Under the pieces are notes generated by a model. The model ran no database searches and was not told the DNA's origin. It was given only the letters and a program-made list of their open reading frames with translations. A program made the position numbers and the translations under genes. Shown one piece after another: positions 22,985-44,024 of a DNA stretch of 64,000 nt. How positions within the stretch are numbered: position 1 is the first letter of the stretch; every line of letters starts with the position of its first letter. The stretch is from Thermodesulfobacteriota bacterium (GTDB lineage: Bacteria > Desulfobacterota > Desulfobacteria > Desulfobacterales > Desulfosudaceae), in NCBI GenBank assembly GCA_040753795.1, contig JBFMDX010000003.1, positions 124,001 to 188,000 of the forward strand, written 5' to 3'.

Positions 22985-23824
22985 CTACTTCTGATACATG
23001 ACGCTCAGCGCCCGGGTCGTTTCCGTCAGGGCCTGGTCGCAGAATTCCTTACCGAAAAAAGCGCCGATGGACTTCATGTAGGACAGGGTTCGCTCCATAT
23101 CCTTCCCGGCAAACGCCCGGCGGGTTTCCTCCATGGCGTCGGAAAAGCGCCTCACCATCTCAGGGGCATGCCGGTTATCCCTGACCAGTTCCGCGTACAG
23201 GGTGATATCCTGGGAAAAAAGACGGCCGATCAGATCGACGTTGATCCGGAAAATGGGCGTCGCGAAGAGGAAGGCCTCCTGCGGCGTCACCTCCAGGTGC
23301 TGTAGCATCCGGCCCAGGGAAAGGGTCAGAAAATGCATCAGGCTCTGGGCCATGGCCATCTTGCGGTCATGCTCGGCCGGATCCATGCGGGTAACCACGC
23401 CGCCGCCGGCCGCAAACAGTCCCTCAAGCCAGGGCAGCCAGCCGTGAAGATCCCGGGCCGGACAGACAATGACATTCAGCCCCTGAAGAGAAGGGGTATT
23501 GGGCGCGAACATGGGGTGGGTGCCGATGACATCGGCCCGGGTGGCTGCGGCCATACGGGCGACGATGGCCTCCTTCTGGGAGCAGAAGTCCACCAGCAAC
23601 TGGTCCTCCCGCAGGGCGGGGCCGATGGATTCGATAATCTCCAGGGCCGGGTTAAGCGGGGTGCTGATGGCCACCACCCGGCACTGCCTGGCCAGGTCAT
23701 GGTAAGTCAGGGCCGTTTTTCTGCCGGCGATGAGCACCCGGTGTCCGCAATCCGTGAAATATTTTTCAAACCAGCGGCCCATGCCGCCGGTGCCGCCGAT
23801 GATCCCGATCGTCACACTGTCCAT
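22985..23824 (-). CDS. tyrA: Prephenate dehydrogenase
   Basis: This is a 279-residue NAD(P)-dependent dehydrogenase that commits prephenate to tyrosine. The nucleotide motif is [13 protein letters not shown]. The family segments [15 protein letters not shown] and [10 protein letters not shown] carry the catalytic His region, and a helical dimerisation domain follows. There is no ACT domain or chorismate-mutase fusion; the mutase is on PheA upstream. It is the last gene of the aromatic operon and overlaps aroC by 13 bases. Confidence 0.93.
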
Positions 23825-24873
23825 TGAATCGCTTTCTGTCTGAGAAGATGATCCGCCAGAACCAGGCAGAGCATGGCCTCACAAACCACGTTAATGCGGG
23901 GAATGGCGGCGATATCGTGCCGGCCCTTCACGGAAATCACGGCGGGGTTGCCGTCCCGGTCGATGGTTCGCTGTTCCCTGGCGATGGAGGGAATAGGCTT
24001 GACCGCCACCCGCGCCACGATCTCGTCGCCATTGGAAATGCCGGCCAGAATACCGCCGGCATTATTGGAGGCGAACCCGTCCGGCATGATTTCGTCATTG
24101 TTTTCCGATCCCAGGCGGGCGGCGGCCGAAAAACCGGCACCGATCTCCACGCCCTTGACGGCGCCGATGCTCATCAGGGCCTTGGCGATATCAGCGTCCA
24201 GCTTATCGAAAACCGGTTCCCCCAGGCCGGCGGGGACACCGGCGGCCTTTACCGCCACTATGCCTCCCAGGGAGTCTCCCCGCGCCCGGACCTCGGCTAC
24301 ACGTGCTTCCATCTTCAGGGCGGCTGCGGAATCCGGGCAGCAGAAAAGGTTTTGACCGGCCTCCGCCAGATCAACCGTGGCCGCGGCAATACCGCCCAGT
24401 TCCTGCGTATAGGAACAGACCGTTATTCCCGCCCGTTCCAGAACCGCCCGGGCCACGGCGCCGCCAGCTACCCGGGCCAGGGTCTCCCGGGCCGAAGCCC
24501 GGCCGCCGCCCCGCCAGTCCCTGACGCCGTACTTGCGGGTATACGTTATATCCCCGTGACCCGGCCGGAAAAGACCGGCATAGGGAGCATAAGCCGAAGA
24601 ATCGGCGTCCCGGTTTTCAGCCATGATCAGGATCGGCGTTCCGGTGGTGACGCCTTCGAAAATGCCCGACAGGATGACGGCCCGGTCCTCCTCCCGGCGT
24701 TTCGTGCTGGTTCCGACCCCGCCCGGCCGGCGGCGATCCAGCATGGCCTGAATCACGGTTTGGTCCAGAGGGATGCCCGGCGGGCAGCCGTCGACCACCA
24801 CGCCCATGGCCGGACCGTGAGACTCCCCCCAGGTGGTAACGCGAAACAGCCTTCCCCACGTATTGCCAGACAT
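23812..24873 (-). CDS. aroC: Chorismate synthase
   Basis: The 353-residue FMN-dependent enzyme converts 5-enolpyruvylshikimate-3-phosphate to chorismate. Recognisable signatures are the N-terminal [20 protein letters not shown], the central [20 protein letters not shown] and the late RHDIAAIPR. The length is normal. It ends inside the start of tyrA and begins 3 bases after aroK, consistent with tight coupling. Confidence 0.97.
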
Positions 24874-24876
24874 GAT

Positions 24877-25416
24877 CTATCCTTTCCCGGCGACCTCGTC
24901 GATAATGCGCCGGCAGACATCCTCCACCGGCAGCCCGTCGGTGTCAACGCAAAAATCCATGGCCCGCCGGTATAACGGCATCCGCTCCGCCAGTGTTTTG
25001 GCGATTTCGTCCCGCAGCGGCAGGGCGGTCAGCCCCGGGCGGGAGACGGCGGTGACGGGGTCCGCCGCCATGCGGCGGGCGATGGTCTCTTCCGAGGCCG
25101 TCAGCCAGACCACCAGGCCGCGTGCTTTCATGACCGCCACGTTCTCGGATTTGAGGACAACACCGCCCCCGGTGGCGATCACCTGGTCACCGCCCCGGGC
25201 GATGGTTTTCAGGATAGCGGTCTCCTGCCGGCGGAATTCATCCCAACCATACGCGGCCACATACTCGGAAATGATGCCGTGCCGGGCGGTAAACCAGTCA
25301 TCGGCGTCCACGAATCGCTTTCCGGTCAGTTCCGCCAGCCGCATCCCCACACTCGTCTTGCCGGTGCAGCGGTATCCGATGAGAAAAATATTGGTCTCTT
25401 CCGGTTTACGGTCCAT
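24877..25416 (-). CDS. aroK: Shikimate kinase
   Basis: The product has 179 residues when started at the ATG at 25416, inside the last codons of aroA (11-base overlap). The P-loop GYRCTGKTSVG, the shikimate-binding DADDWF and GGGVVLKSENV, and the lid RMAADP are all present. It phosphorylates shikimate at O3 using ATP. The reading from 25479 lies within aroA and is rejected. Confidence 0.95.
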   Translation of the reverse strand: MDRKPEETNIFLIGYRCTGKTSVGMRLAELTGKRFVDADDWFTARHGIISEYVAAYGWDEFRRQETAILKTIARGGDQVIATGGGVVLKSENVAVMKARGLVVWLTASEETIARRMAADPVTAVSRPGLTALPLRDEIAKTLAERMPLYRRAMDFCVDTDGLPVEDVCRRIIDEVAGKG

Positions 25417-26668
25417 AGAGTGTCTCAAATACCCGCCAGAAATCAGGAAAGGATTTCTCCACGCAGGTCTCGTCTTCAATAATCACTCCCGGCGTGACCA
25501 GTCCGGCCACGGCAAAACTCATGGCCATGCGGTGGTCATTGGCCGGATCGATGCGCGCTCCCGTCGGACGCCCGCCCATAACAGTCAGGCCGACATGGTC
25601 GTCCATGGCGACGATCCCCATCCGGGCCAGATTTCCGGCCACCACCGCCAGCCGGTCGCTTTCCTTGGCTTTCAGGTGGGCCACGTTCCGGATGACCGTC
25701 GTGCCCCGGGCGAAGGCCGCCACCACCGCCAGGGTCGGCACCACGTCGGGCATGTCCGCCATGTCCACTTCCACGGATACCAGCCGGCCGCCGGTCACGC
25801 TGATGCCGTCGGATTCATGGTCGACCCGGCAACCCATGGCCTCGAGCACTTCCAGGAAGCGGATATCCCCCTGCCCTGAAGCCCTCGACATGCCCAGCAC
25901 CTTGACGGTGGCGCCGGTGACGGCGGCCGCGGCCCAGAAGTAGCTGGCCTGGGAGGCATCCGCCTCCACGACATACCGGCCGGCATGATAACACTGGCCG
26001 CCGACCACGCGGAAACGGGCGTACCGGTTTCTGTCCAGTTCCACCCCGAATCTTTCCATGATGCTGACCGTCAGGTCGATGTAAGGTTTGGAAACCGGCC
26101 CTTCCACCACGGATATATCCAGTCCTTCCTTAATATAGGGGCCGATCAGGAGAAGGGCCGACAGAAACTGGCTGCTTAGCCCGCATTTGAGGTCAATATG
26201 CCCGCCGGTGATGTCCCGGCCGTCAACGGACAGGGGCGGGAACCCTTTCTGGTTCAGGCTGCGGGCGGAAACACCGATCCGGTTTAAGCCGTCCAGCAGG
26301 TCGCCGATGGGCCGCTGCTGCATCCGCTCGGTACCGGTGAGGATGTAAGGTCCCTCACCCAGTGCCGCCACCGCGGTCAGCAGCCGCATGGAAGTGCCGG
26401 AGTTGCCCAGAAAGAGGGGATCATGACAGGCCGTCAGCCGGCCGCCGGTGCCGTACACCGTCGTCGTGCCGTTACTCTCATCGAAGCGGACCCCCATCTG
26501 CGTCAGGGCCTGCCGGGTCAGGTGCGTATCTTCGCTGTGCAGGCAGTTTTCCAATTCGCAGACGCCGTCGGAAAGAGCCGCGGCGATCAGGCAGCGGTGG
26601 GTATAGCTCTTTGAGCCCGGCACGGTTACCGCGCAGTTTCTGATCTTACTCGTTTTTATTTCAATCAT
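25406..26668 (-). CDS. aroA: 5-enolpyruvylshikimate-3-phosphate synthase
   Basis: The 420-residue two-domain enzyme joins shikimate-3-phosphate and PEP. Key stretches are the N-terminal VPGSKSYTHRCLIAAALS, the LFLGNSGTSMRLLTAVAAL loop and the C-terminal NDHRMAMSFAVAGL. These are the EPSP synthase signatures. It follows aroE by 35 bases in the operon and overlaps aroK. Confidence 0.97.
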   Translation of the reverse strand: MIEIKTSKIRNCAVTVPGSKSYTHRCLIAAALSDGVCELENCLHSEDTHLTRQALTQMGVRFDESNGTTTVYGTGGRLTACHDPLFLGNSGTSMRLLTAVAALGEGPYILTGTERMQQRPIGDLLDGLNRIGVSARSLNQKGFPPLSVDGRDITGGHIDLKCGLSSQFLSALLLIGPYIKEGLDISVVEGPVSKPYIDLTVSIMERFGVELDRNRYARFRVVGGQCYHAGRYVVEADASQASYFWAAAAVTGATVKVLGMSRASGQGDIRFLEVLEAMGCRVDHESDGISVTGGRLVSVEVDMADMPDVVPTLAVVAAFARGTTVIRNVAHLKAKESDRLAVVAGNLARMGIVAMDDHVGLTVMGGRPTGARIDPANDHRMAMSFAVAGLVTPGVIIEDETCVEKSFPDFWRVFETLYGP

Positions 26669-26703: not shown

Positions 26704-27528
26704 TTATTCTTCATCGGTCTGTAATGCCACCAGTACCGCCTGTCGCATGACCTCCACCGGCGCCGGCCGGCCGGTCCAGGCTTCAAACTGGGCGGCGCCC
26801 TGATAAACGAACATGGCCAGCCCGTCGATGGTTTCACAACCGCATTCGGCGGCTTCCTTGAGCAGCCGGGTTTTCAAGGGGTTATAAACAATATCCATGA
26901 CCACCCCGCCCGGTCTGAACCACTCCCGTGGAACCGGCGATACATCGCTGTCCGGCGCCATTCCCACCGGCGAGGTATTGATCAGGACATCCCACTCGCA
27001 GGATCCGGCTTCGGCCACGGCCAGGGCGTCGCCGCCGAAGTCCCGGGCCAGGGGTTTGGCCCCGGCCACGGTCAGGTCGGCGATCAGCAGCCGGCCGCCC
27101 TCGCGGGCCACGCCGTAAGCCACGGCCCGGGCCGCGCCGCCGGCCCCGATCACCAGGACGGTGCGACCGCGGACAACGGTCTTTTCCAGCAGCGCCCGGA
27201 TCGCCCCCTGCCAGTCCGTATTATGACCGACCAGGCGGCCGTCGCGGTTGACGACGGTGTTGACGGCGCCGATGCGGCGGGCCTCCTCATCCACCTCGTC
27301 CAGGTGGGCCATGGCGGACACCTTGTGGGGAATGGTGATGCTGGCGCCGCCGATGCCCAGGGCGCGGATACCGCCGACAGCGCCGGCAATATCCTTCACC
27401 CGGAAAGCGACATAGGCGTCGTTGATGCCGGCGGCGGCAAAGGCGGCATTGTGCATGACCGGGCTCCGGCTGTGGGCCACCGGATCCCCCAGAACGCAGT
27501 AAACCGTCGATTTGGCGTTAATGGCCAT
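26704..27528 (-). CDS. aroE: Shikimate dehydrogenase
   Basis: The 274-residue NADPH enzyme reduces 3-dehydroshikimate. Substrate residues are in VLGDPVAHSRSPVMHNAAF and SITIPHK (catalytic Lys). The NADP motif is GAGGAARAVAYG, followed by LINTSPVGM. The ATG at 27528 is chosen because a GGAGG overlapping the pheA stop lies about 9 bases upstream. A longer open frame to 28131 lies inside pheA. No 3-dehydroquinate dehydratase domain is fused, and none is found elsewhere in the window. Confidence 0.96.
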   Translation of the reverse strand: MAINAKSTVYCVLGDPVAHSRSPVMHNAAFAAAGINDAYVAFRVKDIAGAVGGIRALGIGGASITIPHKVSAMAHLDEVDEEARRIGAVNTVVNRDGRLVGHNTDWQGAIRALLEKTVVRGRTVLVIGAGGAARAVAYGVAREGGRLLIADLTVAGAKPLARDFGGDALAVAEAGSCEWDVLINTSPVGMAPDSDVSPVPREWFRPGGVVMDIVYNPLKTRLLKEAAECGCETIDGLAMFVYQGAAQFEAWTGRPAPVEVMRQAVLVALQTDEE

Positions 27529-27533
27529 CTTGC

Positions 27534-28637
27534 TTATCCTCCCATCGTCGCCACGGGATAAGAGCCGAGCACTTTGAGGAACTGACAGCTGTCCTTCATG
27601 CGGGCCAGGGTCCCTTTTACAGGCTCCTCCTCGGCATGTCCCAGAAGATCGACGAAGAAAACATAACTCCAGTTCTCGTATTTGGCCGGCCGGGATTCCA
27701 GCTTGATCATGTTGACTCCCGCTTCGGCGATGGGGCCAAGGGCCTTGAACAGGGCGCCGGGCACATGGGCCGTGACGAACATGAGCGACGTCTTGTCGTT
27801 GCCGGTGACCGGCACGCGCTCGTTGCCGATCACCAGAAAACGGGTAGTGTTGCGGGCGACATCCTGGATCCGGGAGGCCACCACCTGCAACCCGTATATC
27901 CGTCCGGCTTCCCCGCCGGCGATGGCGCCGGCCCGGTCGGCGGTCAGGGCCATTTTGGCGGCCTGGGCGTTGCTGCTGCACTCCACCAGGTCCGCCTCCG
28001 GCAGGTGCTTGCCGAGCCAGCGGCGGCATTGCGCGAAGGTCTGTGGATGGGAATAGATCGTGCGGATGTCCTCCATCCGGCCCGAACGCGACAGCAGATC
28101 GTGGGAAATGACCAGGTAGATCTCTCCGCATATCTTCAGGTCGGCCTCCTGGAACAGGTCCAGGGTATGGTTCACCGCCCCTTCGATGGAGTTCTCCACC
28201 GGCACGACGCCATAGCGGCTGGCGCCCTTTTCCACCTCGTCGAACACGTCCTTGATGCTCGGCTGGGGAACCAGCCGGTCGTATGTTTCAAAATACTCAA
28301 GAGCGGCAAAATGGGTGAAGGTCGCCTCCGGTCCCAGATAGGAAATCACCCGGGGTTCCTGGAGCTGCCGGGAGGCGGCGATGATTTCGGAAAAAATCCG
28401 CTTCAGGCCGTCATTGGCAAGCGGCCCGGGGTTCCGGGCGGCCAGGGCCCGTAGCATTTGATCCTCCCGGGCCTTGTCCACGATGGCGTGGCCGGCCGCA
28501 GCCTTGTACTCGCCGATCCGCCGGGCCAGGGACAGCCTTTCGTTGAGCTGGTCCAGAATCCTGGCGTCAATGGCATCGATATCCCGGCGGACGGCTGCAA
28601 TCCGCTGCCGGGTTTCATCCTCTTTATTCGGGTTCAT
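27534..28637 (-). CDS. pheA: Bifunctional chorismate mutase / prephenate dehydratase
   Basis: The 367-residue P-protein has an AroQ-type chorismate mutase helix bundle (1-90; RRDIDAIDARILDQLNERL). Next comes a prephenate dehydratase domain (about 95-275; YLGPEATFTHFAAL, VVPVENSIEGAV, TTRFLVIG). The C-terminal ACT domain (about 285-360) has the allosteric ESRP motif, so feedback inhibition by phenylalanine is expected. It sits centrally in the aromatic operon, and tyrA at the operon end uses the same prephenate. Confidence 0.96.
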   Translation of the reverse strand: MNPNKEDETRQRIAAVRRDIDAIDARILDQLNERLSLARRIGEYKAAAGHAIVDKAREDQMLRALAARNPGPLANDGLKRIFSEIIAASRQLQEPRVISYLGPEATFTHFAALEYFETYDRLVPQPSIKDVFDEVEKGASRYGVVPVENSIEGAVNHTLDLFQEADLKICGEIYLVISHDLLSRSGRMEDIRTIYSHPQTFAQCRRWLGKHLPEADLVECSSNAQAAKMALTADRAGAIAGGEAGRIYGLQVVASRIQDVARNTTRFLVIGNERVPVTGNDKTSLMFVTAHVPGALFKALGPIAEAGVNMIKLESRPAKYENWSYVFFVDLLGHAEEEPVKGTLARMKDSCQFLKVLGSYPVATMGG

Positions 28638-28695: not shown

Positions 28696-29688
28696 CTATT
28701 TTTCCGTTATGGTTTCTTCAATCCGGTAACCGAAATGCCGGCCCCCCGCCTCCATGGACACCAGCACCCCGTCACCGGGTTTCAAGGTCACCACCGATAC
28801 CGGTTTGCCGTCCGGAGCGGTCAGACGGATGGTCTCGGCGTTCTGCACGATGGTGGTAATGGCACTGCCCTCGCAGACCGCCTTGACCAGCATGAGTGGC
28901 CGCTTTTCGATCTTCAGCCGACCCACCACGGCATCGGTCGTGTTGCCCTGGTAGTCGGTGATGAAAATCCGGTCTCCGGCGGCCAGTTCCGACAGGTAGC
29001 GCGTCTTTCCGCCCGGCACCCGGGTATAGGCGTGGACCGGACCGGCGTTGACGCGAAACGGCCGCGGCGCGACGTAAGGATTGACGACACTTTCCGAATG
29101 GACCAGGAAAAGGGCCCGGTTGCTGTTGCCCACCAGCATGCCCTGGCCTTCGGTCATGGCGGTGCAGGTGTCCACGCAGACCCGGTCGCCCATGCCGACG
29201 GCGATGATATCCGTTATTTCCGCCGCCTGAAGCGGCGTCCGTTCAGGCGCCCCGCGGACCTCCTCCAGGGCCTTCTTCAGTTCGGCCGGATCGGGTACAT
29301 CCAGCAGTAGGCGGCTGACCCCCTTCTCCAGAATGCCCATCGCGGTACGGGCTTCCGCGGCGCTGGCCACCCGCGTGATGACATCGGCCCCCCTGGCGAT
29401 GAGATTTTCCAGGGGAATGATGGTCCAGTCCCGGCACTGCAGAATCACTTTTTTATCCCGGCAGAGCCGAAGGATCTCCTCTTCATCGGCGCCGGAAGTG
29501 ATTTCAAACACGACTACCTCCTCGCCGAGTTTCAGGTCCCCGTCTTCGGCGATGGTGTCAATCCGGCCCAGTTCCTTGACCTTATGGGAATATCCCGGCG
29601 GCACCAGAATACCGTCAGCCCCCCCCTCCAGCGCGGTCGTCACCATTTTCTTGTTCCAGGGATCGACCTTTACCCAGATTGTCCGCAT
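28696..29688 (-). CDS. 3-dehydroquinate synthase II (archaeal type)
   Basis: The 330-residue product belongs to the family that forms 3-dehydroquinate from 2-amino-3,7-dideoxy-D-threo-hept-6-ulosonate by NAD-dependent oxidative deamination and cyclisation. It replaces the classical AroB route that starts from DAHP. Recognisable stretches are MRTIWVKVDPWNKKMVTTAL, ILQCRDWTIIPLENLIA, GMGDRVCVDTCTAM and VNAGPVHAYTRVPGGKTRYL. One base separates it from the ADH synthase gene. Confidence 0.94.
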   Translation of the reverse strand: MRTIWVKVDPWNKKMVTTALEGGADGILVPPGYSHKVKELGRIDTIAEDGDLKLGEEVVVFEITSGADEEEILRLCRDKKVILQCRDWTIIPLENLIARGADVITRVASAAEARTAMGILEKGVSRLLLDVPDPAELKKALEEVRGAPERTPLQAAEITDIIAVGMGDRVCVDTCTAMTEGQGMLVGNSNRALFLVHSESVVNPYVAPRPFRVNAGPVHAYTRVPGGKTRYLSELAAGDRIFITDYQGNTTDAVVGRLKIEKRPLMLVKAVCEGSAITTIVQNAETIRLTAPDGKPVSVVTLKPGDGVLVSMEAGGRHFGYRIEETITEK

Positions 29689-29689
29689 G

Positions 29690-30511
29690 CTATTTCCCCT
29701 TCCCGCGGCTTGGTTGTTTGAGCATTTTCAAAGCCCGTTCCACGCTGGCGCCGTCATTGACCACGGCCGCGATGGCGGCCACCATCCGAGCCGGATGGGC
29801 ATGCTGGAAAACGTTCCGGCCGATAGACACACCGGCGCCGCCGGCGTCGACCGACCCCCGGACCATCTCCAGGATAGCCCGGTCCGAGTCCATCTTGGGT
29901 CCGCCGGCGATGACCACCGGCACGGCGCACCCGGCCACCACCTCGCGGAAGGTGGCGACGCTGCCGGTGTAGGAGACCTTGACGATATCGGCACCGAGTT
30001 CGTCGCCCACCCGGGCGGCGTGTTTGATAAAGGAAACATCGTATTCGTTTTTGATCTTCTCTCCCCGGGGATAGATCATGGCCAGCAGCGGCATGCCCCA
30101 CTCCCGGGCGTCCGAGCTGATCCGGCCGAAATCGTGGAGCATCTGTTTCTCGTCCCGGTCGCCGATGTTGACGTGAATGGAAACACCGTCGGCGCCCAGT
30201 TTGACCGCTTCCTCAACCGTACACACCAGTGTCTTGGCGTTGGGCGTCGGCGACAGGCTGGTCGAAGCCGACAGGTGGATAATCAGCCCGATGTCCCGTC
30301 CCCGGCCGCGATGCCCCTTGCCGACCAGGCCTTTATGTTCCACCACGGCATTGGCGCCGCCTTCGGCCACCAGGCCGACGGCGGTCCGGATGTCGATCAC
30401 CCCGGCGATGGGCCCCACGGACACGCCGTGATCCATGGGGACGATGACCGTTCGGCCGGTGTCCCGATTCATTAATCGTTCCAGCCTGATTTTTTTGCCC
30501 AGAATCGTCAT
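29690..30511 (-). CDS. 2-amino-3,7-dideoxy-D-threo-hept-6-ulosonate (ADH) synthase
   Basis: The 273-residue class I aldolase-fold enzyme is the first step of the archaeal-type shikimate pathway, condensing an aspartate-semialdehyde-derived unit with a 6-deoxy-5-ketofructose-phosphate-type donor. The family start is [15 protein letters not shown]. The Schiff-base Lys is expected in [15 protein letters not shown], and the phosphate-binding region is [12 protein letters not shown] with [11 protein letters not shown]. An AGGAGG site precedes the ATG. It is the first structural gene of the operon and lies just behind the attenuator at 30563-30714. Confidence 0.93.
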
Positions 30512-30562: not shown

Positions 30563-30600
30563 AAAAAAGCCGCGGGCTTGTTTTCGATCCGCCCGCGGCT
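30563..30600 (-). terminator. Intrinsic terminator of the aromatic attenuator
   Basis: A perfect 10-bp stem, AGCCGCGGGC (30600-30591) and GCCCGCGGCT (30577-30568), encloses a 13-base A-rich loop and runs into six T residues on the minus strand. It stands about 50 bases before the ADH synthase start, so it must act as a conditional terminator for the operon behind it. Confidence 0.92.
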
Positions 30601-30627
30601 TTGTTTACTTTTTGTTGTTAATCGGAC

Positions 30628-30714
30628 TCAGCGCACCACAGGCAGACCGGTATTAAAGTAGTAATACCAGAAGTAGCAAAAATAAAATCTGTCTGCCCGG
30701 AGGAACGCGTTCAT
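30628..30714 (-). CDS. Aromatic leader peptide (28 aa)
   Basis: This is a short ORF of ATG, 27 further codons and TGA. The peptide begins MNAFLRADR. Residues 10-20 read FYFCYFWYYYF, that is 4 Phe, 5 Tyr and 1 Trp in 11 positions. The peptide then ends NTGLPVVR. Such a run is extremely unlikely by chance and is the hallmark of a ribosome-stalling leader. All three aromatic amino acids are represented, which fits control of the common pathway rather than one branch. The ribosome-binding site is weak by eye (GAAAGC before the ATG). It is followed by the terminator at 30563-30600. Confidence 0.9.
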   Translation of the reverse strand: MNAFLRADRFYFCYFWYYYFNTGLPVVR

Positions 30715-30763: not shown

Positions 30764-30792
30764 CTCCTATCCGACCGGCGTGGAAAAGTCAA
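30764..30792 (-). promoter_or_regulatory. Candidate promoter of the aromatic operon
   Basis: On the minus strand TTGACT (30792-30787) is followed after 17 bases by TAGGAG (30769-30764). The -35 is good and the -10 is poor. Transcription would start about 40-45 bases before the leader ATG, a sensible distance for an attenuator. No other convincing pair lies closer. Confidence 0.4.
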
Positions 30793-41798: not shown

Positions 41799-44024
41799 AT
41801 GGAACAATTGCTACAAGCCCTTCCGAGACCGGTCGGCGTCATCTCGAGGGCCGTATCCATCGACCGGCCGTTTCTTGATTTCGCCGCTCCCTATGCGGCC
41901 CTTCCGGGAACAGTGCTGCTGGCCAGCGGCGGTCCTTCGGACTGCGCTCGCTATCATATCCTGGCCGCCCGCCCATGGCTAACGATAACGGCCAAAAACG
42001 GTGCGGTCACCCTGCGGACGGAAAAGCAAACCGCGACCTTTGATCTGCACCCTTTAGCAGCCGTCAAACAGATCCTGTCCCGATTCCGCCAGGATGACCC
42101 GCGACTGCCCGGTCCCGTGGCTGCCGGACTTTTCGGCTACCTGGCTTATGATTTCAAGGACAGCCTGGAAACCCTGCCCCGGACATCCGTCGACGACCTG
42201 GGCCTGCCGGATATGTATCTGACGGCGCCGCGACTGATCCTGATTCATGACCGCCAGACTTCGGAAACGACGGCCCACATTCCCTGCTTCTCTGCAATTG
42301 CACATAACACGATGCCTGACGACTTGTTGATGCCCCCTCCCTTGGCGGCGGAAACCTCCGGCTATACCGTCGGCCGGCCGGAGTCCGACTTCACCGAAAC
42401 CGGTTACCGGGAAGCGGTAAAAAAATGTATCGACTACATCGCCGCCGGCGATGTCTACCAGGTCAATCTTTCCCAGCGGTTTTCAGCCGCTTTTTCCGGC
42501 GACCCTTACCGGCTGTTTCTCGACCTGTTCGCGAAAAACCCGGCCGCCTTTTTCGCCTTTATCCATGCCGGCGACCATCATATCGTTTCCACCTCACCGG
42601 AGCTGTTTATCCGGCAGAGGGGCCGGCAACTTGAAACCCGGCCCATCAAGGGCACCCGGCCCCGGGGCAGGACGCCGGATGAAGACCGGGCCAACAGCGC
42701 CGCCCTTCTCTCCAGCTCCAAGGACACGGCCGAACTGTCCATGATCGTCGACCTGCTGCGTAACGACCTGGGCCGGGTCTGCCGGGGCGGCAGCGTGCGG
42801 GTCACCGGGCATAAGCAACTGGAAGCCTACGACAATGTTTTCCACCTGGTGTCCACGGTAGAGGGTGAACTGCGCGATGACGCCGACGGGGCCGACATCA
42901 TCGCCGCCACGTTTCCCGGCGGCTCTATCACGGGATGCCCCAAGATCCGGGCCATGGAAATTATCGACGAACTGGAACCCTGCCGCCGGCACGTCTATAC
43001 AGGCTCCATCGGTTACATCGGCTTTCACGATTCCATGGACCTGTCCATCGCCATCCGCACGGCCATTATCCGCGGTAATCGACTTTACTATTCCGCCGGC
43101 GGCGGCATTGTATTTGACTCCGACCCGGCCGACGAATACCGCGAGACCCTGGCCAAGGCAGCCACGGTACTGAACATCCTGGACAAAGGGACAGACGCAA
43201 AAGACGACCGGCCCTGGCGCTGGATCAACGGCCGGCTGTCGCGGGAGGAGACCGTTCCCATGGCCGTGTCCTCGCCGGGATTCCAGTATGGTGCCGGCCT
43301 GTTTGAAACCATCCGCGTTGACAACGGCCGGCCGCGGTTGCTGGCCGAGCACCTGGAACGGTTTACGGCCTCCTGGCAGGCCCTGTTTTCAACACCGCCG
43401 CCGGACATCACCTGGCCGGCGGTCATCGATCAGGTGCTGAAGGAAAACCGTTTAACCGAAGGGCCGGCGGCCATAAAAATAATGGCCGTCCTCGGCGCCC
43501 GGGAACAGCCGCCCTATGATCACACCCTGGTGGTGACGGCGCGGCCTTATGTCCATCGCCTGATTGCGCTGGAAAAAGATGGCCTGGACCTGGGCGTTTA
43601 TCCCCATCCCCGACTGACAGCCACGGCCGACCATAAAACCATGAACTACCTTTATTATTACCTAGCCGGGAAATGGGCCGCGGCCGCGGGAAAAGACGAA
43701 GCCATCATCTTAAACCCCGACGGCACCGTCTCGGAGACCAACACGGCCAGCATTCTGCTGGTCAGCGGACGTACCGTGACCGTCCCGCTCTCGCCCTGCG
43801 TCCTGCCCGGCGTCACGCAGAGGGCGGCCCTGAATTTTCTAACCGGCCAGGGGTATGACGTCCGGCAGGCGGCGGTAACGCCGGCGGAATGCCTTGAAGC
43901 CGGAGCCGTGCTGCTGACCAACGCCCTCATGGGCGCCGTGCCTGTCTCAAGCATCGACGGGAAAAAAACCGGAATGCCCACCGGGCTTTGTCGTGAAATC
44001 AACCATCACCTGGGATGTGAATAA
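41799..44024 (+). CDS. pabBC: Aminodeoxychorismate synthase component I fused to aminodeoxychorismate lyase
   Basis: The 741-residue fusion (ATG at 41799) has a PabB half (1-460). It contains the chorismate-binding core with VYQVNLSQRFSAAF, RPIKGTRPRGRTPDEDRANS and FPGGSITGCPKIRAMEIIDE. After a short linker comes a class IV aminotransferase-fold PabC half (about 470-741). That half starts WINGRLSREETVPMAVSSPG and includes the PLP Lys region ADHKTMNYLYYYLA and the SETNTASILLV loop. With PabA it would make p-aminobenzoate for folate from chorismate in one complex. Confidence 0.93.
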   Translation: MEQLLQALPRPVGVISRAVSIDRPFLDFAAPYAALPGTVLLASGGPSDCARYHILAARPWLTITAKNGAVTLRTEKQTATFDLHPLAAVKQILSRFRQDDPRLPGPVAAGLFGYLAYDFKDSLETLPRTSVDDLGLPDMYLTAPRLILIHDRQTSETTAHIPCFSAIAHNTMPDDLLMPPPLAAETSGYTVGRPESDFTETGYREAVKKCIDYIAAGDVYQVNLSQRFSAAFSGDPYRLFLDLFAKNPAAFFAFIHAGDHHIVSTSPELFIRQRGRQLETRPIKGTRPRGRTPDEDRANSAALLSSSKDTAELSMIVDLLRNDLGRVCRGGSVRVTGHKQLEAYDNVFHLVSTVEGELRDDADGADIIAATFPGGSITGCPKIRAMEIIDELEPCRRHVYTGSIGYIGFHDSMDLSIAIRTAIIRGNRLYYSAGGGIVFDSDPADEYRETLAKAATVLNILDKGTDAKDDRPWRWINGRLSREETVPMAVSSPGFQYGAGLFETIRVDNGRPRLLAEHLERFTASWQALFSTPPPDITWPAVIDQVLKENRLTEGPAAIKIMAVLGAREQPPYDHTLVVTARPYVHRLIALEKDGLDLGVYPHPRLTATADHKTMNYLYYYLAGKWAAAAGKDEAIILNPDGTVSETNTASILLVSGRTVTVPLSPCVLPGVTQRAALNFLTGQGYDVRQAAVTPAECLEAGAVLLTNALMGAVPVSSIDGKKTGMPTGLCREINHHLGCE

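Follow-up and report, generated by a model that had tools for sequence, protein, structure and literature searches.

The stretch of DNA analysed here (64,000 nucleotides, referred to as the window) very probably carries a trp-type ribosome-mediated transcription attenuator, recognised from its sequence, in front of an operon for 2-amino-3,7-dideoxy-D-threo-hept-6-ulosonate (ADH) synthase, the shikimate pathway and the Phe and Tyr branches, whose aromatic genes seem to be copied only when Phe or Tyr run short. The element is widespread in the phylum, though not universal. Moreover, sequence comparison and folding models of the relatives lead us to favour, on balance, a strand relay by which one leader would switch two terminators in most of them, though not in the window's own family.

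The operon had been presented in a preliminary description as an eight-gene aromatic operon behind the leader, and domain matches were obtained for all eight genes, which lie on the same strand as the leader (minus) in the order adhS, dhqS, pheA, aroE, aroA, aroK, aroC and tyrA. The first gene, encoding ADH synthase (29690-30511; TIGR01949, 371 bits against a cut-off of 299), starts 51 nt from the end of the terminator U-tract and is followed by those for type II 3-dehydroquinate synthase (dhqS, 28696-29688; NF002627, PF01959), chorismate mutase/prephenate dehydratase (pheA, CM-PDT, 27534-28637; domain matches), shikimate dehydrogenase (aroE, 26704-27522; NF001319 and TIGR00507 matching residues 204-471 and 210-470 of a longer ORF), EPSP synthase (aroA, 25406-26668; TIGR01356), shikimate kinase (aroK/aroL, 24877-25395; PF01202, with the best NCBIfam model, NF002988, below its cut-off at 148 of 161 bits), chorismate synthase (aroC, 23812-24873; TIGR00033) and prephenate dehydrogenase (tyrA, 22985-23824; PF02153 and PF20463, with no NCBIfam model above its cut-off among the matches listed). 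The starts of aroE and aroK were deduced from the domain matches. The genome of the window also encodes two ADH synthase-like paralogues (G000:C19:20703-21488 and G000:C4:202521-203300, 57 and 55% identity), the upstream regions of which have no aromatic leader. A trpE-like open frame of 889 aa found in the window at 41919-43175 on the plus strand (TIGR00564, 388.6 bits, under the cut-off) possibly corresponds, as a guess, to an aminodeoxychorismate synthase.

The leader peptide ORF (MNAFLRADRFYFCYFWYYYFNTGLPVVR, 30628-30714, minus strand) is conserved in relatives. It had been described as 28 codons long with 4 Phe, 5 Tyr and 1 Trp codon in 11 positions, which agrees with the sequence: its regulatory codons 10 to 20 (30655-30687, minus strand) read F Y F C Y F W Y Y Y F and include, besides those ten aromatics, one Cys; a fifth Phe is codon 4, and this aromatic run is conserved. 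The stop codon had been said to lie close behind the switch segment (segment 2), as attenuation needs, and it does so, beginning 4 nt past it, so that a terminating ribosome would cover segment 2. Upstream, a probable -35 hexamer TTGACT (30787-30792) and a weak, probable -10 hexamer TAGGAG (30764-30769), both on the minus strand, were recognised by eye, with a 17-nt spacer as in L003 and L004, the other two members of the window's family; the arrangement TTGAC-17 nt-TA is common to the three. A consensus promoter scan returned no site upstream of the leader, the promoter assignment resting on inspection and comparison.

The elements expected of an attenuator are arranged around this ORF, all on the minus strand. 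Segment 1 (GGGCAGAC, 30691-30698), the partner of segment 2, appears in the minimum free energy (MFE) structure and is backed by the 1:2 swap test described below. The pause stem anticipated for this region (GGGCAGAC with GTCTGCC, plus GGTATTA/TAATACC) is indeed part of the MFE structure, the GGTATTA/TAATACC portion forming an inner hairpin within it (30649-30668). Segment 2, the switch segment TCTGCCTGTGGT (30635-30646), is supported by duplex and swap tests and can form 12 pairs with segment 3 (GCCGCGGGCGGA, 30588-30599), which acts both as antiterminator partner and as 5' arm of the terminator. All 12 pairs of this 2:3 helix, four of them G-U as read from the sequence, form, and when the leader tail was shuffled, 2 of 2000 sequences gave an equally strong duplex with the terminator arm, which bears out the 12-bp antiterminator proposed earlier. 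The intrinsic terminator hairpin of segments 3:4 (T1, 30566-30602) has a stability of -23.8 kcal/mol, a loop of 13 and 12 pairs (9 G/C plus AAA/TTT), and is followed by a U6 tract (30563-30568), the first three U of which also pair with AAA; of the "perfect 10-bp terminator with U6" announced beforehand, the terminator and its U6 thus stood, while the helix proved slightly longer. Folding of the 155-nt leader, as had been suggested, yielded an MFE of -55.9 kcal/mol containing pause stem and terminator, against -37.9 +/- 3.9 for shuffled sequences (z -4.6, 0 of 200 as good).

In the proposed mechanism, the sensor would read charged tRNA-Phe and tRNA-Tyr (plus one Trp codon in the window species). 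Under good charging the ribosome would get to the stop codon and cover segment 2, letting the terminator 3:4 form, whereas a stall in the aromatic run would leave segment 2 free to pair with segment 3, and RNA polymerase would read on; without translation, 1:2 would form and the terminator as well. When the leader was masked to 12 nt past codon 16 and the polymerase placed before segment 4, the MFE structure was the antiterminator; with segment 4 emerged, the terminator was more stable than the antiterminator. Partition-function calculations gave the window terminator a probability, P(T1), of 1.0 with the ribosome at the stop codon, going only down to 0.64 with the ribosome stalled mid-run, while in L003 and L004 the stalled values were 0.05 and 0.01. 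The window therefore combines the features of the trp type, namely a leader ORF rich in end-product codons, an intrinsic terminator before the first gene, a 2:3 helix exclusive with 1:2 and 3:4, and a stop codon beside segment 2, from which we infer stalling and read-through at the leader.

The alignment of regions upstream of ADH synthase genes in other Desulfobacterota, proposed as a check, revealed a conserved leader and terminator. A first scan of genome contigs took the best 80 of 502 ADH synthase loci, mostly from Desulfobacterales and other Desulfobacterota, and 80 further upstream stretches were added from a class-wide search in which ADH synthase was detected at E<=1e-100 in 157 of 374 genomes (matches with coordinates like those of earlier loci being skipped). 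After removal of 36 exact duplicates (last 200 nt) and of L105 and L108, whose gene start was not located, 152 distinct upstream regions were available. Under the stricter ORF rule, 126 of these have an ORF with at least 7 aromatics in 11 residues, compared with 4 of 760 dinucleotide shuffles and 3 of 152 regions read on the reverse strand. Five or more aromatics in 11 residues are encoded by a small ORF in 143 regions, a weak criterion by itself which 137 of 760 shuffles also reach, and such a leader is combined with a U-tailed hairpin in 141; L086 and L087 were counted as false leaders because they have no terminator after the ORF. No leader was found in nine of the 152 regions, two of which have less than 100 nt of upstream DNA. 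At the level of the phylum, 75 of 297 genomes gave an ADH synthase match, 65 of them outside the window's order, and among 40 upstream regions from outside the order (four of which repeat earlier loci) 22 have at least 7 aromatics plus a terminator, three have 6 and 15 have no leader. Leaders were found in other classes of the phylum too.

The helices themselves are also maintained in relatives. In swap tests bearing on the covariation that the preliminary description had proposed to look for, helices formed with a segment of the same locus were more stable than those formed with the segment of another: -20.5 versus -16.4 kcal/mol for 1:2 (138 loci, 0 of 3000 swaps) and -20.2 versus -17.9 kcal/mol for 2:3 (51 loci, 0 of 5000), although shared ancestry is still contained in the swap tests, as it is in the Fisher test given below. 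In constrained folding of 125 loci, mean P(T1) was 0.99 with the ribosome at the stop codon and 0.66 when stalled; it was lower by more than 0.3 in the stalled state in 43 loci and higher by that much in none, with a stalled median of 0.92 at equilibrium. One group of loci, with a single terminator (L049, L057, L062, L063, L070, L072, L078, L079, L084 and L085), shows by eye different segments around the aromatic run, GTCGAGG/CCTCGAC, and mostly a long terminator loop, which may hold the antiterminator partner. Taken together, the conserved leader and terminator and the fit of each helix to its own partner support the ribosome-mediated attenuator build that had been proposed before this pathway-entry gene. 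A lack of aromatic run and terminator in related genomes, which the preliminary description had named as refuting it, was thus not observed.

Two readings that would dispense with a ribosome-controlled switch are both most improbable. Were the hairpins terminators of the usual kind, with an ORF that encodes a small protein or arose by chance, the short length of the ORF would be accommodated, and nothing else would be: its position, its aromatic content, the antiterminator complementarity and the conservation all speak against it. Control of the terminator by a riboswitch, a T-box or an RNA-binding protein, with the ORF secondary, is just as hard to sustain: nothing was found in its favour, and no Rfam family, T-box included, reached its gathering score in the window or in the upstream regions of 10 relatives (Phe_leader, RF01859, scored 19.1 bits against 55, and the best sub-threshold match, the trpB motif RF04312, 26.2 bits against 59). 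Moreover, the conserved part consists of the coding run and the pairing segments, and group C loci keep the aromatic run though their flanking segments differ.

The amino acids to which the attenuator would respond deserve a finer distinction. The leader had been called tri-aromatic, a term that holds for Phe and Tyr, which are near-universal, and only in part for Trp: across 141 leaders the run contains on average 3.2 Phe, 4.6 Tyr and 0.7 Trp, with Phe in 140, Tyr in 141, Trp in 87 and all three in 86. The regulatory run of these leaders is also strongly biased in its codons (TTT 423 versus TTC 28; TAT 527 versus TAC 120). The preferred reading of the ADH operon leader is that of a gauge for Phe and Tyr in which a Trp codon is optional, and sensing of Phe plus Tyr fits the operon because it carries pheA and tyrA. 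There is about an even chance that the leader senses Phe and Tyr only, the Trp codon of the window being incidental. In keeping with this, L004, from the window's own family, has Arg at the Trp position, and the trp operon of the window genome is preceded by a separate leader (...NWWWRAW...) with a terminator behind it, before trpE; at least three Trp in 9 residues occur upstream in 27 of 30 trpE loci, that of the window genome among them (the best 30 from 108 genomes with a match, out of 117). On the other hand, a Trp codon does recur inside the run of those 87 leaders, and the operon also feeds Trp synthesis.

Most relatives differ from the window in having a second U-tailed hairpin (T2) between leader and gene. 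Counting U-tailed hairpins of -8 kcal/mol or better in 143 loci, two were found in 97, three in one, one in 43 and none in two. L011, L048 and L045, the last from Desulfonema magnum, are examples of the tandem arrangement of leader, T1 and T2. In the 101 loci with both T1 and T2 (-5 kcal/mol or better; L125 was left out for want of an anchor), T2 is typically GGCCGTGGA...TTCACGGCC-U, starts a median of 8 nt after T1 and ends a median of 29 nt before the gene (30 nt or less in 54 loci, 45 nt or less in 72), which leaves little room for a promoter behind T2 in most of them, so that the operon presumably must be read through it. In 16 of 147 genomes the exact T2 pattern was matched, at 19 places altogether, and the reversed pattern used as control gave none; 14 of the matches lie before ADH synthase and 5 before trpE as judged from coordinates compared by eye. 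On this distribution, the idea that T2 is a terminator in general use in these genomes was rejected. Of the 30 trpE loci, 28 likewise carry at least two U-tailed hairpins, and the trp leader of the window genome (L090, G000:C4:93000-101500) has two tandem hairpins before trpE, whereas in the aromatic operon of the window, L003 and L004 there is T1 only and no second U-tailed hairpin. In ten loci (L064, L080, L163, L171, L179, L180, L190, L191, L192 and L195) it is hairpin 1 that lacks the U-tract: of the 8 bases behind it only 1-3 are T, and a U-tailed T2 follows, as though the attenuator's first stage had been converted into a pure relay; in L171 and L179 the best hairpin found differs from the GCCGTGG one. 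L039, L047 and L051, each with one distant terminator, were not counted as relay cases. The single U-tailed hairpin detected in L183 and L199 extends from GCGGC-U to GGCCGC (or a similar sequence) and corresponds to the helix T1-3':T2-5' itself; these may be degenerate or misread tandem loci.

How a single leader could govern both terminators is suggested by the complementarity between the 3' arm of T1 and the 5' arm of T2. In the relay considered here, segment 2 would take the 5' arm of T1, and the freed 3' arm would pair with the 5' arm of T2; one stalled ribosome would thereby disarm both terminators, which would otherwise form in turn. Core positions 1-7 of T1-3':T2-5' are paired in 92-100% of the 101 loci, and in the swap test (the same 51 loci as for 2:3) own partners gave -16.3 versus -14.9 kcal/mol for swapped ones (0 of 5000), a shuffled T2 arm giving -7.0 kcal/mol against T1-3'. 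In the trp set the corresponding values were -13.9 and -12.7 kcal/mol (15 of 5000; 27 of the 30 loci, L233, L246 and L247 giving no pair, and L226, paired with the wrong hairpin, being kept). Direct pairing of segment 2 with T2 was considered and rejected, with a mean of -11.5 against -21.0 kcal/mol for T1: segment 2 fits T1 better by more than 3 kcal/mol in 92 of 101 loci and T2 better by that margin in none.

At position 7, T1-3'/T2-5' is C/G in 81 of the 101 loci, U/A in 10, C/A in 5, U/G in 2 and other in 3, the C/A mismatches being those of L144 (whose second hairpin was probably assigned wrongly), L149, L150, L151 and L182. Among the 78 loci whose T2 3' arm has U at this position, T2's own pair is G-U in 64, so the G of T2-5' is better explained by the C of T1-3'. 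When only loci with G in T1-5' are taken, the counts become C/G 80, C/A 5, U/G 1 and U/A 6 (Fisher 4e-6). In L031, L034, L061, L067, L071 and L123, T1-3' and T2-5' depart together from the majority while T1-5' is unchanged; the same U/A state was seen by eye in L298 and L300, from another family, and in the trp locus L242, next to U/G in L297 and C/A in the trp locus L238. Pagel's test, run on a tree built from 110 ADH synthases (74 of them with data; 19 of 20 added gene stretches used, L204 left out), favoured a dependent over an independent model at position 7 (LR 22.8, p 1.4e-4; 6.15 being the highest of 20 simulated nulls), and position 5 gave a weaker signal (LR 8.9, p 0.06; highest of 20 nulls 6.28). 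Counted on strongly supported branches alone, position 7 offers 2 (b) or 4 (c) independent pairs, which do not suffice for a sign test. As a separate observation, seven loci (L018, L046, L055, L099, L121, L131 and L145) have an A.C mismatch in T1 at core position 4 and an intact T1-3':T2-5' pair.

Folding models point in the same direction as long as transcription is still in progress. With the polymerase in the T2 loop, the predicted number of relay pairs had a median of 10.1 in the stalled state versus 0.3 with the ribosome at the stop codon, being higher by more than 3 when stalled in 78 of 102 loci and the reverse in none. Where hairpin 1 has no U-tract, as in the ten loci named above, no connection of leader to terminator other than the relay is evident; between stall and stop the model predicts a difference of at least 0.3 in four of these loci (L080, L180, L190 and L191, three of one genus), one of 0.10-0.16 in two and one not exceeding 0.05 in the other four. 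At full length and equilibrium, mean P(T2) was 0.86 stalled and 0.95 at the stop codon. Since the terminators usually win at equilibrium even when the ribosome is stalled, the model needs co-transcriptional kinetics and the relay must act kinetically; these kinetics we infer.

A T2 uncoupled from the leader, serving as a partial constant terminator that lowers basal expression or overcome by general antitermination, is the rival of the relay, and we regard it as rather unlikely. It would account for the formation of T2 in both states at equilibrium, and the resemblance of T1 and T2, which look like duplicates, means that part of the complementarity comes free and may be a by-product. T2 may be such a duplicate kept similar by gene conversion, but this would by itself leave unexplained the loci in which T1-3' and T2-5' are off the majority and T1-5' is not. 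The same joint change without T1-5' following, together with the likelihood ratio obtained on the tree at position 7, the loci with a U-tract-less hairpin 1 and the confinement of the exact T2 pattern to the two aromatic gene contexts in all 19 cases among 147 genomes, argues against independence of T2 from the leader. With the strand relay retained as the preferred reading, it appears reasonably likely that a class of Desulfobacterota runs its aromatic and trp operons by double-locked attenuators, two terminators being controlled through one leader. With similar likelihood, some lineages without the first U-tract would use the relay alone, and the window's family has no T2 in this operon while the window genome keeps one in trp.

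For sulfate reducers using the ADH route, these observations suggest how pathway entry may be regulated, with one peptide serving as gauge for two end products. If true, the double terminator would provide very low leakage from a single sensor, and the relay would be a natural two-stage transcription switch, for which lineages with two locks, with the first alone or with the second alone would offer a ready-made comparison of the gain and loss of attenuator stages.

With regard to the literature, the main text of PMC2965389 has no word starting with Desulf, delta or aromatic. A search retrieved no description of a Phe/Tyr leader on ADH synthase or of its spread in the phylum, nor any leader peptide with relay-coupled tandem terminators; these results refer to titles and abstract openings among the matches listed, with older subscription surveys of proteobacterial attenuators outside its reach, and do not establish absence from print. 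Among the closest known systems is the enterobacterial trp attenuator (Rfam Trp_leader), which has the same leader ORF, 1:2, 2:3 and 3:4 helices, terminator and stop beside segment 2. The element described here differs from it in having a Phe/Tyr run instead of tandem Trp codons, in controlling, by way of ADH synthase, the shared pathway as well as the Phe and Tyr branches, and, in relatives, in the addition of a second, apparently coupled terminator. The pheA leader (RF01859) is alike in its Phe codons and attenuation logic, and in E. coli it controls a single branch. The earlier contention that known leaders respond to one amino acid was overstated, as the ilvGMEDA and thr leaders of enterobacteria such as E. 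coli combine in one leader codons for several end products, though with branched-chain or Thr/Ile codons and on operons different from this one.

Other systems share particular traits with the element. The uORFC-13-1 motif upstream of aroF in Acholeplasma was proposed to be a Phe-codon leader adjoining a terminator, and it likewise precedes a pathway-entry enzyme, but this is DAHP synthase in unrelated organisms, and the source passage mentions one or more Phe codons but no run of Tyr (PMC8632094). The trpB ncRNA motif RF04312, presented in PMC11109978 as a riboswitch candidate from Firmicutes and Fusobacteria, also joins a hairpin and a terminator near amino acid genes. As far as the relay is concerned, the nearest counterpart is the his attenuator, for which PMC10989985 describes six segments with AB/CD/EF versus BC/DE alternatives and places a uridine run after EF only. 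There, as in the relay proposed here, an upstream ribosome flips a chain of hairpins, and hairpins 4:5 and 5:6 after segment 4 are found in relatives (101 loci), though not in the window. The last hairpin is, however, not the sole terminator in most of them: 98 of 143 loci have at least two that are U-tailed, and about 100 bear U-tails on the equivalents of both CD and EF, unlike the his arrangement as given in PMC10989985. The window, as well as L003 and L004, is without the last two segments and keeps one U-tailed hairpin, while the closest match to his is offered by the ten loci without a hairpin 1 U-tract, in which the last hairpin alone is a terminator.
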